Below are positions 23,565 to 57,816 of a stretch of 64,000 nucleotides of DNA, in pieces. Source of the stretch: Candidatus Hydrogenedentota bacterium (GTDB lineage: Bacteria; Hydrogenedentota; Hydrogenedentia; Hydrogenedentales; CAITNO01); assembly GCA_018056705.1 (NCBI GenBank), contig JAGPFE010000013.1, forward strand, positions 1-64,000. Direction: 5' to 3'. How positions within the stretch are numbered: position 1 is the first letter of the stretch; every line of letters begins with the position of its first letter. Made by a program: the position numbers and the translations under genes. Below the pieces are notes generated by a model. That model was not told where the DNA came from. It made no database searches and was given only the letters and a program-made list of their open reading frames with translations.

Positions 23565-25973
23565 TCAGCGATGGCGAAACGCCCCGTACCACTGGCTGCC
23601 GCCGTGGTCGAGGTGGAGGACGTATACCCCTTCCAGCCTGGTTTCGAACCCGTATTTCCAGGTAACGTCCCGGCCGAAGTGCCAGTCCGAACTTTCGAAA
23701 TGATCCAGTTCGTGGTATTTCACCCGTTGCAGGATTTCCCTTCGGACACACTGGAAAAAGCCGATGGGCGTGCCGTCACTTTCCCGCGCGCGTAATTCAC
23801 CCGGACCGGCGAGCAGTTGTTCATGGCATTCCCAGGGACGGATCTCGCCCACGAGGATGGCCGCGGTAGTTTTGGGATCCAGCATTTTCCGGCCTTCCGG
23901 GGCCACGTGAAATGCCTGGGGTCCCAGCGACTCTATGCGGGCAAGCAGGTCGGGTGGAGCCACGATGTCCGCGTCCATCAGCGCCGTCCATTTGCCCGCG
24001 GCAAGCCTGGCCGCCTCGTTAATCATGAACCCCTTGGCCTTGACGCAGCCGGACGGCATGGGCAGGCGCACCCATCGGGTGCCGGGATAAAGCATTTCCA
24101 TGGAGTCCAGGACGTCGTCCGTGGCATCGACACCGGGCACGTAGGCCACGATTACCTCTACCGAACCTTCCGGCAGGCCCTGTTGCCGGGCGATGGACGC
24201 CAGGGCTACCTGCAGCCGTCGGGAGAAGCGGGTGCATACCACGATGACCGAAAACAGCAGGTTCCCCGGGGCGGGGGGCGCGAGATCGGCATGTTCCCAC
24301 ACCTGCACGGACTGGGTAAAAATCATGCCGTCAATGTTGTGCAGGCAGATGCGGGGCTCGCACACGTCCGGGAGACGTTCGGGGACCGCCCGGTTACCTT
24401 CGAGCCGCACGGGCAGCAGGGACTGGTCGTCCCGGAGCAGCACGTACGCCCCATCCTGGGCCACGTGCAGGGTGATCCGGTGGGTATAGTCCACCATCGG
24501 TACCAGCAAGCGGGCATGTCGGCCCAGCGCGAATCCCGCGTATTCTGCCACGCCTCCGCCCAGCATGTAGGACACGGTGAAGGGAGGCTTTAATCGTCCC
24601 AGGGGCGTGCTGACCTGCTCACACAGGGAAAACGAGGTCCATCGCACGGCCCCCGGCATGTGCAGGGAATAAACCCCATCGACGGTGTAGTCCTGTTCGC
24701 TCAGCGCGCGGTCGGGGGGGCGACGTCTCAGGATTTCCCGGGCGGTATCCGCGAGGTAATCGCTGGCTTTCAGGGTTTCCAGGCGTTGGCGATCCACGGG
24801 ATCCAGCAGGGATTCCTGGTCGGGGGACGCGCCTGCCCAGGCCAGGGGGGCTCCAGGAATGGCCCGGGGCGTGAAACCGGGATGGGCCGTCTGGAATCCT
24901 GCCGTCACCCGGTCACAGACCATGCGGAAGGCACAGCCGCCGCAGACCGGTCCCCGTTCGGCTTCCCGCTTGCGCTGGTACCGTTCCAGGGCGGCGTCCC
25001 ATTCTTCCGGCGTGCGAGGGGGTGGTCGGAACCGGCGTTTCAGCGGGCTCAGCCGCCGGGCCAGTTTGTGGTACATCCACACCCGGATATAAAACCGCGG
25101 ATAATCCAGCAGCCAGGGAAACAGCGCGGCGTCAATGCCCTGGTGGAGGGAGACGCCCCGGGAAAGCATGTTTTCCAGCACGGCATCCACCCGGCCAGGA
25201 CTGTGCCGGAACAATTGTTCGGCGAGAACCCGGGAAGGGGCGTTGTAATCCCGGCAATCCCGGCGACGTTGCAGATCGTTCTGCACGCGGGCACGCAGCG
25301 TTTCGGGTACCGCGCAGAACGGCACGTCCCTCAGGATCAGGGGTAATCCCGCGTCCCCCAGCGCGGCGGCGTTCGCGAGCCACCGGCTCCACCATTCGCT
25401 TCCTGGCGGCGAGGCCTGAATGAAGGGATCCGTGATGAAGGCGGTCAGCGCGGAAAACCGGTCTTTCTGGCGTCCCAGTCGATCGATGGCCTGGGGGGAT
25501 AACCCGGCCATGACGGCGGGGTCCAGCCACAACCGGACCAGCAGTCCCGCGTCTGCCGCCGCGTCCAGCCATGCCATCGTTCGGTCGTTTTCCGGGTCCG
25601 CGGGGGCCAGGCACAGGTCCGGCATGCCGTACCGGGACGCCCAGGATTTCAGCGAGGACGGGGGCGCGCAAGCCGGTTGCAGGCGCAGGGAAGGCTGAAT
25701 GGCGTCTGACGCGCACCACTCGAACACCGCCTCAATGAAGGCCAGGTGATCCGGCAGGGCCATGAGGTCTACCTTGGGCGTGGTGTACAGGTTCCGGTGT
25801 ACCCGCACCCACCGTTGCACCGTGATCAGCGGCAGGGTATCTCCCGCCCGGTTATACAGGCAGACCAGCCCGCGCGCCGAAGGCAGGTTCCACTTCGGCC
25901 CGATAACCCGTTCCCCGGTATCCTCCCCGTGACCCGGCTCGACGGGACGATCCTGTCCCGGGAGCGTGTTCAT
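23565..25973 (-). CDS. Fusion: degenerate radical SAM/SPASM-like half plus GT2 glycosyltransferase
   Basis: An 802-residue protein. The ATG at 25973 overlaps the stop of the radical SAM gene (ATGA); an in-frame ATG at 26012 is less likely. The N-terminal 350 or so residues are organised like a radical SAM/SPASM enzyme, with a Cys cluster CGGCAFRMVC near residue 350, but they lack the CxxxCxxC motif needed for the catalytic cluster. A middle region (about 400-560) follows. The C-terminal 230 residues are a GT2 domain: FSVIVVCTRFSRRLQVAL at about 570, the DxD-like LMDADIVAPPDLL near 680, and later ESSDWHFGRDV. It probably partners the adjacent true radical SAM protein. Substrate unknown. Confidence 0.8.
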   Translation of the reverse strand: MNTLPGQDRPVEPGHGEDTGERVIGPKWNLPSARGLVCLYNRAGDTLPLITVQRWVRVHRNLYTTPKVDLMALPDHLAFIEAVFEWCASDAIQPSLRLQPACAPPSSLKSWASRYGMPDLCLAPADPENDRTMAWLDAAADAGLLVRLWLDPAVMAGLSPQAIDRLGRQKDRFSALTAFITDPFIQASPPGSEWWSRWLANAAALGDAGLPLILRDVPFCAVPETLRARVQNDLQRRRDCRDYNAPSRVLAEQLFRHSPGRVDAVLENMLSRGVSLHQGIDAALFPWLLDYPRFYIRVWMYHKLARRLSPLKRRFRPPPRTPEEWDAALERYQRKREAERGPVCGGCAFRMVCDRVTAGFQTAHPGFTPRAIPGAPLAWAGASPDQESLLDPVDRQRLETLKASDYLADTAREILRRRPPDRALSEQDYTVDGVYSLHMPGAVRWTSFSLCEQVSTPLGRLKPPFTVSYMLGGGVAEYAGFALGRHARLLVPMVDYTHRITLHVAQDGAYVLLRDDQSLLPVRLEGNRAVPERLPDVCEPRICLHNIDGMIFTQSVQVWEHADLAPPAPGNLLFSVIVVCTRFSRRLQVALASIARQQGLPEGSVEVIVAYVPGVDATDDVLDSMEMLYPGTRWVRLPMPSGCVKAKGFMINEAARLAAGKWTALMDADIVAPPDLLARIESLGPQAFHVAPEGRKMLDPKTTAAILVGEIRPWECHEQLLAGPGELRARESDGTPIGFFQCVRREILQRVKYHELDHFESSDWHFGRDVTWKYGFETRLEGVYVLHLDHGGSQWYGAFRHR

Positions 25974-41847: not shown

Positions 41848-41864
41848 TTTGAGTGGGGTAAAAT
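41836..41864 (+). promoter_or_regulatory. nrdD promoter
   Basis: TTGACT (41836-41841), a 17 bp spacer and TAAAAT (41859-41864). The leader to the ATG at 41960 is about 90 nt. Confidence 0.75.
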
Positions 41865-41959
41865 CAACTCGTTCCCGATGCGGGCTGTACGGGAACGCGG
41901 GACGCGGCGGCTTGGCGAGGAGGCCCCGCGGAAGTTCACAACGCAGCGGAGGAGGTCAC

Positions 41960-44179
41960 ATGGAAACGGCATTGGAGGGCATGCTGGAGGGTTCGGTCCG
42001 GCAGGGCGCGGTAGCGGGGCACCCGGAAATCGTTCCACTGTACACGAAAATTGTAAAGCGCGACGGGCGGGTGGTCGATTTCGACGCGGGCAAGATCACC
42101 ATGGCCCTGTTCAAGGCGGGCCAGGCTACCGGTGAATACGGCATGGATGAGGCCCGCCGCCTGACCATGCGGGTCCTGGCGATGTACCACTCGCTCCATG
42201 GCGCCGAGACGCCTTCGGTGGAATCGGTGCAGGACGTGGTGGAAGAGATCCTGCTGGCCTCGCCATACCGCAAAACGGCCAAGGCGTATATTCTCTACCG
42301 CGATCGCCACGCCCAGGTGCGCGAACTGATCAACAAGGCCGATGTCGAGCTCATCGACCGTTACCTGGGGCGGCGGGACTGGCAGGTCAACGAAAACAGC
42401 AACATGGCCTATTCGCTCCAGGGCCTGAACAACTACATTTCCAGCGAGGTCAGCAAGGTCTACTGGCTGAACAAGGTGTACACCCGGGATATCCGGGAAG
42501 CCCACCAGTCCGGCGACCTGCATCTCCATGACCTGGGCCTGTTGTCGGTGTACTGCGTGGGCTGGGACCTGCAGGACCTGTTGCGGAGCGGCTTCCGCGG
42601 GGCTCCGGGCAAGGCCGAAAGCAGCCCCGCCAAACACTTTCGCACGGCCCTGGGCCAGGTGGTGAACTTTTTCTATACCCTGCAGGGCGAGGCTGCCGGG
42701 GCGCAGGCCTTCAGCAACTTCGACACCCTGCTGGCGCCCTTTATCCGCCACGACGGGCTGGGTTACCGGGAAGTGAAACAGGCCCTCCAGGAATTCGTGT
42801 TCAACCTGAACGTGGCCACCCGGGTAGGTTTCCAGACCCCGTTCACGAACGTCACCATGGACCTGCGTCCCCCGAAAACGCTGGCCAACGAGCCGGTGAT
42901 CATCGGGGGACAGCCCCAGGATACCTGTTACGGCGAATACCAGCCGGAAATGGACCTGTTTAACGCGGCGTTCCTGGAGGTGCTGACCGAAGGGGACGCC
43001 CGGGGCCGGGTGTTCAGTTTTCCCATTCCAACGTATAACATCACGCCGGAGTTCGAGTGGGATCATCCTGGCCTGGCGCGCCTGTGGGAAGTGACCGCGC
43101 GGTATGGCATTCCTTACTTCGCCAATTTCATTCACTCCGACATGTCTCCCGAGGATGCCCGGTCCATGTGTTGCAGACTGCGGCTGGACCTGCGTTCCCT
43201 GGACCGGCGGGGCGGTGGCCTGTTCGGGGCAAATCCCCTGACGGGGTCCATCGGGGTGGTGACGCTGAACATGCCACGACTGGGACTGCTGGCCAGGGAC
43301 GAGGCCGATTTCTTCGCGCGGCTCGCCCGGCTGATGGACATCGCCAGGGAAAGCCTCGAAACCAAGCGGAAAATCCTCGAGGGCTTCACCGAGCGCGATC
43401 TTTACCCGTACACCAAGTTCTACCTGCGCGATATCTACCGTCGCTACGGGGCGTACTGGCGACACCATTTCTCCACGATAGGGCTGGTGGGAATGAACGA
43501 GGCCTGCCTGAACCTGCTGGGCGAGGATATCGGCTCCGAGGCGGGACGCGCGTTTGCCTGCCGGGTGCTCGATTTCATGCGGGACCGCCTGGCGGATTAC
43601 CAGCAGGAAACCGGGCACCTGTACAACCTGGAGGCCACGCCCGCCGAGGGCACCTCGTACCGGCTGGCCCGGATGGACCGGGACCGGTTCCCCAACGCCC
43701 GGTTCGCCAACCATGATGCCGTGCTGCAGGGTGCCGAACCGTTCTACACCAACTCCACCCAGTTGCCGGTGGACTACACGGACGACATTTTCCAGGTGCT
43801 GGACCTGCAGGATCCGCTGCAGAGCCGGTACACGGGCGGCACGGTGCAGCACGTCTTTCTGGGCGAATCGGTGGCGGATCCCGAGGCGGTCAAGCGCTTC
43901 GTGCGCGCGGTGTGCCATCGTTACCGGATGCCGTATTTCACCGTGTCCCCCAGTTTTTCGGTATGCCCCGATCACGGTTACCTGCGCGGTGAGCATCCCC
44001 GGTGCCCGCGGTGCGGGGCCGAGGCCGAGGTATACGCCCGGATCGTGGGATACCTGCGCCCGGTGAAACAGTGGAACGAGGGCAAACGGGCCGAGTTTCA
44101 ACTTCGCAGACGGTTCAGGATTGATGTTTCGGGAGGAGAGGAGAGCCACGCGTGCATATTGGAGGATTCCTGCCCCTGA
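41960..44179 (+). CDS. nrdD: Anaerobic ribonucleoside-triphosphate reductase
   Basis: Class III glycyl-radical enzyme making dNTPs without oxygen; 739 residues. The ATG at 41960 follows GGAGGT. An N-terminal ATP-cone (about 25-115) gives allosteric control. The catalytic domain includes SDLHLHDLG and VNFFYTLQGEAAGAQAFSNFD. The C-terminal zinc site CPDHGY...CPRCG precedes RIVGYLRPVKQWNEGK, with the glycyl radical at the Gly of RIVGYLRP. It overlaps nrdG by 28 bp. The promoter has paired NrdR-like boxes. Confidence 0.95.
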   Translation: METALEGMLEGSVRQGAVAGHPEIVPLYTKIVKRDGRVVDFDAGKITMALFKAGQATGEYGMDEARRLTMRVLAMYHSLHGAETPSVESVQDVVEEILLASPYRKTAKAYILYRDRHAQVRELINKADVELIDRYLGRRDWQVNENSNMAYSLQGLNNYISSEVSKVYWLNKVYTRDIREAHQSGDLHLHDLGLLSVYCVGWDLQDLLRSGFRGAPGKAESSPAKHFRTALGQVVNFFYTLQGEAAGAQAFSNFDTLLAPFIRHDGLGYREVKQALQEFVFNLNVATRVGFQTPFTNVTMDLRPPKTLANEPVIIGGQPQDTCYGEYQPEMDLFNAAFLEVLTEGDARGRVFSFPIPTYNITPEFEWDHPGLARLWEVTARYGIPYFANFIHSDMSPEDARSMCCRLRLDLRSLDRRGGGLFGANPLTGSIGVVTLNMPRLGLLARDEADFFARLARLMDIARESLETKRKILEGFTERDLYPYTKFYLRDIYRRYGAYWRHHFSTIGLVGMNEACLNLLGEDIGSEAGRAFACRVLDFMRDRLADYQQETGHLYNLEATPAEGTSYRLARMDRDRFPNARFANHDAVLQGAEPFYTNSTQLPVDYTDDIFQVLDLQDPLQSRYTGGTVQHVFLGESVADPEAVKRFVRAVCHRYRMPYFTVSPSFSVCPDHGYLRGEHPRCPRCGAEAEVYARIVGYLRPVKQWNEGKRAEFQLRRRFRIDVSGGEESHACILEDSCP

Positions 44180-44775
44180 GCCTGTGTGACTACCCGGGAA
44201 TTCCGGCAGCGGTCGTGTTCACGCAGGGCTGTAACTTTCGATGTCCGTTCTGTCACAATGGGCCGCTGGTGTCCAGGGTCATCGCGGAAGACCGGCTTAT
44301 TCCGGAAGCCGAGATCCTGGACCGGTTGCGGGTCCGCCGGGCTGCCGTGGAAGGCGTGGTCATTTCGGGAGGTGAACCGACCATCCAGCCGGATCTTCCC
44401 CGCTTCGCGCAAATGGTCAAGCGCATGGGCTACCGGGTGAAACTGGACACCAACGGCAGTTATCCGGACGTGCTCGAGGTGTTGTTACGTGAAGGGCTGG
44501 TGGATTGCGTGGCCATGGATATCAAGGCCGCGCCGGACCGATACGCGGCGCTGACGGGGCTGCCCGCTCCGCCCCTGGAGGCGGTGCGCGCCACCATCCG
44601 ACTGCTGGTCGCCAGTTCCGTGGATTTTTATTTCAGGACGACCATGGTTCCCGCCTTGCACCGGCCCGATGAAGCCGACCGGATACGGGCATGGCTGCCC
44701 GGTAACACGCCCTGGCGGGAACAGGTATTTCAGCCGGAAAACGCGCTTGACCCAGAATTGCGTCGGACGGGGTGA
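44152..44775 (+). CDS. nrdG: Anaerobic ribonucleotide reductase-activating protein
   Basis: Radical SAM activase that generates the glycyl radical on NrdD; 207 residues. C27, C31 and C34 (CNFRCPFC) bind the 4Fe-4S cluster, followed by SGGEPTIQ. A GTG start with GAGGAGAG upstream overlaps the end of nrdD, consistent with coupled translation. The opening LSLCDYPGIPAAVVFTQGC is typical of the NrdG/PflA-like activases of NrdD. Confidence 0.93.
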   Translation: MHIGGFLPLSLCDYPGIPAAVVFTQGCNFRCPFCHNGPLVSRVIAEDRLIPEAEILDRLRVRRAAVEGVVISGGEPTIQPDLPRFAQMVKRMGYRVKLDTNGSYPDVLEVLLREGLVDCVAMDIKAAPDRYAALTGLPAPPLEAVRATIRLLVASSVDFYFRTTMVPALHRPDEADRIRAWLPGNTPWREQVFQPENALDPELRRTG

Positions 44776-44778
44776 TTC

Positions 44779-45906
44779 CTACGCGTCAAACAGCATGCCC
44801 GTCTCGGGAGGGGGGGGCGGACAGAACACGTCGTGCAGCGGGATCATGACTTCCGCGTCGATGGCCGCGTAACGCAGTTGTTCTTCCGACAGGGGACGGA
44901 CCGTCCAGTCAGAGGTCTGCAACCCCTTGTCCAGGAAGATCCCCAGTTCCCGCTCGCAGACTTCGTCGAGGCGATGGCCCCCGGAAATCGGCGTCTTGCG
45001 GGGTTTTTTACGGGAGGCCACCAGCGTGTCGAACACCGGATCTATTTTCATCCCGAGGGGAGCAAACATCTGCCGTTCAAATTCCGCGTTGTGGATGATC
45101 TTCAGCACGGACGGGTTTTCCAGGATGCCGCGCAGGGGGGAAAGGTCCCGGATGGCCAGGGCGTCGATCACGTAATTGGCGCGTTCATCGGCGAACTGCA
45201 CGGTGCACAGCACGCGGGGCTCTTCAAGGGTGGTTTCCACGTCCAGGCCTAGCCGGTCACGGGTGGCCAGGTCCTGGCAGAGGGCAGCCATGGCGTCCGG
45301 CTGATCGATCCAGTGGATGGGATTACGCGGCGCGTACAGGCCTCCCTTGAAGAAGAGCGCCATTACGGCCTGGCCGTCCTCGGTGGGCAGCAGTTCCTCG
45401 GCGGTCAGGGACACGTTTCCCAGCAGATCATGGAAATACCGGCCGACCCCGATGACATCCGGTGACGGCGCGTTCCGCAGGGCGGAGCGGGACGTGACGG
45501 CGAACAGCCCCCCGGGCCGGACCAGCCCGAATGCCTCGCGGAATTTCCGGCGACGGTTTTCGGGCGCGCTGATACGGCTGAGCACGTAGTTGAACAGCAC
45601 GAGGTCGTAATGCCCCGTCGGGGGCGTGGCGTAACCGAAAGGAACATGCGTGTCGTAGCCTTCCACCGGGTACCGCCGCACGAGCAGCCAGTCCACGTCC
45701 ACGCCGTCGCCGCATCCGTAGCAGAGGATCCGTTTTTTGCCAAGCAGCAGTCCCCGGTTTTCCAGGAGGGGCAGAATGGGGGCCACCTCCCGGCGTCGGC
45801 CTTGGGGATGTCCCGGGCCTGCCGGTCCGGTAAAGGAAGAGGATGGTTGTCGCGATGGATGTTGCAAGGACGGGATCTCCAGCGTGCCCCCGAAGGTCAG
45901 GATCAC
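44779..45906 (-). CDS. Fusion: class I methyltransferase (TIGR04096-like) plus RNase D-like DEDDy exonuclease
   Basis: A 375-residue protein. Residues 58-195 hold a SAM fold with motif ILCYGCGDGVDVDWLL (60-75) and YDLVLFNYVLSRISAPENRR, a pattern recalled from DNA phosphorothioation-associated putative methyltransferases. Residues 215-365 are a DEDDy 3'-5' exonuclease domain: LDVETTLE (motif I, 221-228), HNAEFERQM (motif II, 272-280, Glu where Asp is common) and YAAID (motif III, 346-350). The GTG start at 45906 is weakly supported; a GTG at 45786 is possible. Fusion of these two activities suggests nucleic acid processing or repair. No dnd gene is seen nearby. Convergent with nrdG. Confidence 0.8.
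   Translation of the reverse strand: MILTFGGTLEIPSLQHPSRQPSSSFTGPAGPGHPQGRRREVAPILPLLENRGLLLGKKRILCYGCGDGVDVDWLLVRRYPVEGYDTHVPFGYATPPTGHYDLVLFNYVLSRISAPENRRRKFREAFGLVRPGGLFAVTSRSALRNAPSPDVIGVGRYFHDLLGNVSLTAEELLPTEDGQAVMALFFKGGLYAPRNPIHWIDQPDAMAALCQDLATRDRLGLDVETTLEEPRVLCTVQFADERANYVIDALAIRDLSPLRGILENPSVLKIIHNAEFERQMFAPLGMKIDPVFDTLVASRKKPRKTPISGGHRLDEVCERELGIFLDKGLQTSDWTVRPLSEEQLRYAAIDAEVMIPLHDVFCPPPPPETGMLFDA

Positions 45907-57725: not shown

Positions 57726-57816
<91 letters not shown>

Follow-up and report, generated by a model that had tools for sequence, protein, structure and literature searches.

The locus raises the question of what a protein does in which a methyltransferase-like domain and a 3'–5' exonuclease are joined. 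The window, 64,000 nucleotides of a Candidatus Hydrogenedentota genome (G000), carries a 375-codon open reading frame with a GTG start that encodes such a fusion (Table 1). Pfam recognises both halves of the protein, with Methyltransf_23 (PF13489) matching aa 52–139 at 33.7 bits (cut-off 27) and DNA_pol_A_exo1 (PF01612) matching aa 197–359 at 114 bits (cut-off 23.6). The AlphaFold2 model, built from a 33-row alignment, displays two confident domains (pLDDT 88, pTM 0.82) with disorder only at aa 1–35; because these residues also lie outside the region of homology, the true start may lie inside the ORF. The N-terminal half adopts a Rossmann-like class I SAM methyltransferase fold with a GxGxG-type motif I, as judged from the model and from Foldseek, without the strand between motifs II and IV. 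The C-terminal half, shortly past which the protein ends, carries motifs I–III with the YxxxD signature of the DEDDy exonuclease superfamily. Residues D222/E224, H272, N, F, E277 and Y346/D350 are invariant in all 22 aligned fusions, and the acidic residues D, E, E and D together with the Tyr make up a full catalytic set. The two domains are, by alignment, fused at nearly fixed spacing, with 84–93 residues between a PGG motif and exonuclease motif I in 21 of the 22 fusions and 125, by simple pattern, in the other. Pfam, model and motifs thus agree with an earlier note, made from the DNA letters, that had placed a methyltransferase and a DEDDy exonuclease in one ORF, with motifs I–III complete and a Glu in motif II, which is E277.

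Table 1. Features of the fusion gene and of the adjoining nrdDG genes, in window coordinates
Feature	Position	Strand	Basis
Fusion gene, 375 aa	44779..45906	(-)	ORF list, 25 homologues, alignment; start uncertain
aa 1–35, disordered, not conserved, may precede the true start	45802..45906	(-)	pLDDT <50, homology from aa ~37
Compact class I SAM-methyltransferase-like domain, aa 36–190	45337..45801	(-)	PF13489, TIGR04096 sub-threshold, hhalign, models, Foldseek
SAM motif I, G64-C-G-D-G-V-D70	45697..45717	(-)	alignment
D85, motif II, acidic residue ending strand 2	45652..45654	(-)	alignment
DEDDy 3'–5' exonuclease domain, BrxHI C-terminal type, aa 195–361	44824..45324	(-)	PF01612, PDLC02501, tree
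Exonuclease motif I, D222-x-E224	45235..45243	(-)	invariant in alignment
Exonuclease motif II, H272-N-A-E-F-E277, Glu replacing the usual Asp	45076..45093	(-)	alignment, tree rows
Exonuclease motif III, Y346-x3-D350	44857..44871	(-)	invariant in alignment
nrdG, radical SAM activase, convergent neighbour outside the unit	44152..44775	(+)	ORF list
nrdD, anaerobic ribonucleotide reductase, neighbour outside the unit	41849..44179	(+)	Pfam NRDD E 7e-195

Whether the fusion is conserved, a survey that the earlier note had called for, was determined across the phylum. It was found in 25 of 68 Candidatus Hydrogenedentota genomes and in 19 of the 38 with at least 90% completeness and at most 5% contamination, which rules out an assembly artefact, chance or an oddity of one assembly. 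The fusion is present throughout families f3, f8, f10 and f11 (13 of 13 genomes) and in 12 of 17 genomes of the window's own family f1, while it is absent from the remaining 38; in one genome (G004) the gene is split across two contig ends. No fusion was detected in the 189 Myxococcota genomes sampled, 18 of which have the exonuclease on other, mostly longer proteins, nor in the 246 Planctomycetota genomes sampled. Among the matches listed, and with these two phyla sampled further, the fusion has so far been seen in one phylum, Hydrogenedentota. Scans of viral contigs (IMG/VR), INPHARED phages and PLSDB plasmids likewise returned no fusion, and a mobile or phage origin was ruled out on these grounds. 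In the full-length fusion tree f1 is monophyletic (96/94), the f3 sequences group together (100/100) and monophyly of f11 is not rejected (p-AU 0.21); the gene tree thus largely tracks the families, which fits vertical inheritance. The fusion is a chromosomal, vertically inherited gene and no mobile defence module. Its domains are known ones, and their combination was not found described in the literature searched.

The surroundings of the gene are in keeping with a solitary unit. As the earlier note had observed, it stands alone beside nrdDG: it is the only gene on its strand, convergent with nrdG across a 3-base gap and more than 600 bp from a divergent aminotransferase gene. A functional link to nrdDG was rejected, the arrangement being common only to a genome of the same genus. 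Elsewhere the neighbours are non-conserved and mostly ordinary metabolic genes; in families f10 and f11 only, MazG and DHDPS genes lie close to the fusion (a MazG-type pyrophosphohydrolase at L119, L122, L125, L126, L128 and L129, with a DHDPS-family gene in 4 of these 6 loci). The suggestion that dnd or other defence genes might be neighbours did not hold: no dnd or BREX genes adjoin the fusion gene, dndC is absent from G000 and gave one sub-cut-off match in the 68 genomes, and PglZ occurs in 6 of 68, in none of them beside the fusion. Both dndC and PglZ are uncommon among these genomes, and their occurrence does not follow that of the fusion. The only PglZ-domain match of G000 lies in a 696 aa frame on another contig (C16:36101–36652). 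A defence island was also rejected: among 90 neighbours scanned with PADLOC, the only notable matches were a pair of protein kinases and one mad3-like domain, each confined to one or two loci. At the fusion locus itself neither an Rfam nor a tRNA feature was found; two tRNA-Ser genes (anticodons GCT and CGA) lie elsewhere in the window, at 25483–25579 and 57727–57816, both on the minus strand.

The exonuclease half had been described in the earlier note as RNase D-like, an affinity that gave way to another. Its best family match is the PADLOC BrxHI model PDLC02501, aligned at positions 751–918 of 925 with 154.7 bits (E 7e-46), ahead of PF01612, of the polymerase-type model PRK14975 (97.8 bits) and of RNase D (TIGR01388, 91.5 bits). 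Orthology to RNase D was rejected, given the RNase D cut-off of 299 bits, the lack of an HRDC domain and the presence of a separate RNase D-like gene in G000. The fusion has the DEDDy fold and motifs in common with RNase D and with the 3'–5' exonucleases of family-A polymerases, but it has neither HRDC nor a polymerase domain, and motif II has Asp in the rows for RNase D and in most of those for polymerases. Glu occupies this position in 25 of 25 fusions and 11 of 11 helicase-type rows, and is not unique to them, as some polymerase-type rows carry it too. Together with the best DEDDy match, this residue assigns the domain to the BrxHI C-terminal type. In agreement with this, the tree of the exonuclease domain places the 25 fusions (100/99) inside a set that also holds 11 helicase-type domains (95/89), apart from the RNase D and polymerase rows; AU tests over 177 columns rejected neither a grouping of the fusions with RNase D (p 0.23) nor one with the polymerase exonucleases (p 0.17). 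The short DEDDy exonucleases NrnC and diDNase are PDB matches to the fusion by sequence and fold. These are stand-alone enzymes acting on dinucleotides, whereas the exonuclease of the window is fused.

Outside the phylum, the nearest sequences among the matches listed are 43–55% identical and are mostly the C termini of Lhr-like helicases of ~900 aa from Myxococcota. Such BrxHI helicases display the same exonuclease type, with the motif II Glu and an entry sequence like PxxPIxWID, behind ~700 aa of Lhr-like helicase and in loci with BrxD and PglZ. Six loci (L047, L049, L050, L052, L053 and L055) encode a BrxHI-type helicase with a C-terminal DEDDy exonuclease carrying this Glu; that of L047 aligns with the BrxHI model across its full length. 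One upstream gene was tested at each of these BREX-like loci and proved to be BrxD in L047, L050 and L052 and PglZ in L049, L053 and L055. The fusion differs from BrxHI in having a methyltransferase where BrxHI has its helicase, and in lacking adjacent BREX genes: its match is confined to model positions 751–918, leaving no Lhr-like helicase core, and in place of linked PglZ and BrxD the window holds nrdDG and metabolic genes. Descriptions of the BrxHI variant with an exonuclease may themselves be scarce, as the word "exonuclease" is absent from the main text of a 2026 BREX survey, where the BrxHI C terminus is called an Lhr-type domain (PMC12839542). Other architectures were also encountered. 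In Riflebacteria (L056:5281–6525) the same exonuclease type follows an N-terminal region that is GIY-YIG nuclease-like by eye, with no Pfam match, and the protein adjoins a helicase-like protein of 1336 aa, while the proteins of L059 and L060 (~316 aa) combine a related exonuclease, with Glu in motif II, and a conserved C-terminal stretch of ~140 aa.

For the SAM half, the earlier note had proposed a likeness to TIGR04096, the DNA phosphorothioation-associated putative methyltransferase. The likeness stands at a sub-threshold level, and membership does not. TIGR04096 is the best NCBIfam methyltransferase family, matched by 19 of 22 fusions (best E 1.5e-14), and a profile–profile comparison by hhalign with ten cyanobacterial TIGR04096 proteins gave E 8e-10 over aa 36–208 and 27–219 of 550 alignment columns. 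Both sides have YGCGxGxDV, DPxxP, a YVxxxI-like stretch and a short link between motifs II and IV. The window protein, however, reaches 30.3 bits (model positions 17–100) against a curated cut-off of 150, the highest score among the phylum fusions being 56 bits; only the N-terminal ~100–220 of the 478 model positions align, the C-terminal part is absent and no dnd genes lie nearby. Membership was accordingly rejected, and the N-terminal domain is best described, from these profile matches, as a compact relative of the TIGR04096 SAM half. In the models no strand separates D85 of motif II from motif IV, and TIGR04096 sequences are by eye equally short there; with this strand missing, even the binding of SAM by members with intact motifs is putative. 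Foldseek matches of this half are general class I methyltransferases, many from natural-product pathways, and the substrate can therefore not be read from the fold. Many cyanobacterial TIGR04096 ORFs (L173, L182, L184–L187) carry an extra copy of model positions ~310–477 upstream of the main match.

Taking the two halves together, we tentatively favour, at somewhat less than even confidence, a chromosomal and vertically inherited 3'–5' exonuclease to which a SAM-binding domain of methyltransferase type is fused. Its role would probably be a housekeeping one, in repair or in the processing of DNA ends, and not that of a mobile defence system. The exonuclease would trim 3' ends of single-stranded nucleic acid, and the N-terminal domain would bind the substrate and then either methylate it or sense SAM or a modified end; trimming would thereby be tied to modification state. 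DNA seems a somewhat likelier substrate than RNA, given that the closest relatives of the exonuclease are carried by helicases of DNA defence and that its score against family-A polymerase exonucleases is at least that against RNase D.

How far the methyltransferase half acts as an enzyme is questioned by one clade. SAM motif I or a close variant is kept in all aligned fusions outside it, and motifs I and II are intact in most. The fusions of G003, G006 and G011, which form this clade with the split gene of G004 (100/100 in the full-length tree), have lost the motif I, II and IV residues while retaining the exonuclease motifs and the domain spacing; loss of the motif I Asp in G004 was set aside as ambiguous, since the overlapping contig reads DVET. 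With SAM motifs lost and exonuclease motifs kept, methyl transfer cannot be essential in that clade. A whole clade of this kind would suit an N-terminal domain that is no enzyme but a SAM sensor or structural scaffold, with the exonuclease gated by or carried on a methyltransferase-like fold, and so would the compact fold without its strand and the lower conservation of the methyltransferase half among intact members (mean pairwise identity 44%, versus 61% for the exonuclease). Yet motif I and D85 are retained in all members outside the decayed clade, and the five f1 genomes without the fusion belong to g3 and g4, which are two of the three genera represented in the clade; it is as though the gene could be dispensed with after loss of the SAM site. 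We consider the sensor or scaffold reading unlikely, albeit the most credible of the alternatives.

A role in defence or in RNA metabolism appears still less probable. For each half, the closest named family comes from a defence system based on modification, and a solitary anti-phage protein with Dnd-associated-type and BREX-type parts could degrade unmodified incoming DNA; its vertical, single-copy distribution, the mostly ordinary and non-conserved neighbours, the lack of co-occurrence with dndC or PglZ, and kinase or mad3-like neighbours in at most two loci each make this the most doubtful of the readings weighed here. Hardly less doubtful is the trimming of tRNA or rRNA 3' ends with coupled RNA methylation, for which the superfamily shared with RNase D and Rrp6 and Foldseek matches to RNase D, Rrp6 and Nibbler might be invoked, but the missing HRDC domain and the separate RNase D-like gene of G000 speak against it, as does the scoring of the exonuclease, which exceeds the RNase D score by far with BrxHI and by a little with the polymerase-type exonuclease; no specific support was found for the tRNA maturation role once suggested. 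More speculative than the housekeeping reading, and improbable as it stands, is the idea that a BREX-type exonuclease moved from a helicase onto a Dnd-associated-type SAM domain, giving a domesticated chromosomal enzyme that would mark or read DNA 3'-end modification before trimming.

The clade that has kept the nuclease while its SAM site decayed constitutes a natural experiment on the role of the methyltransferase half. More broadly, a DEDDy exonuclease module is common to BREX-type helicases and to an otherwise unrelated chromosomal enzyme, which likely reflects an exchange of domains between the chromosomal core and defence systems.
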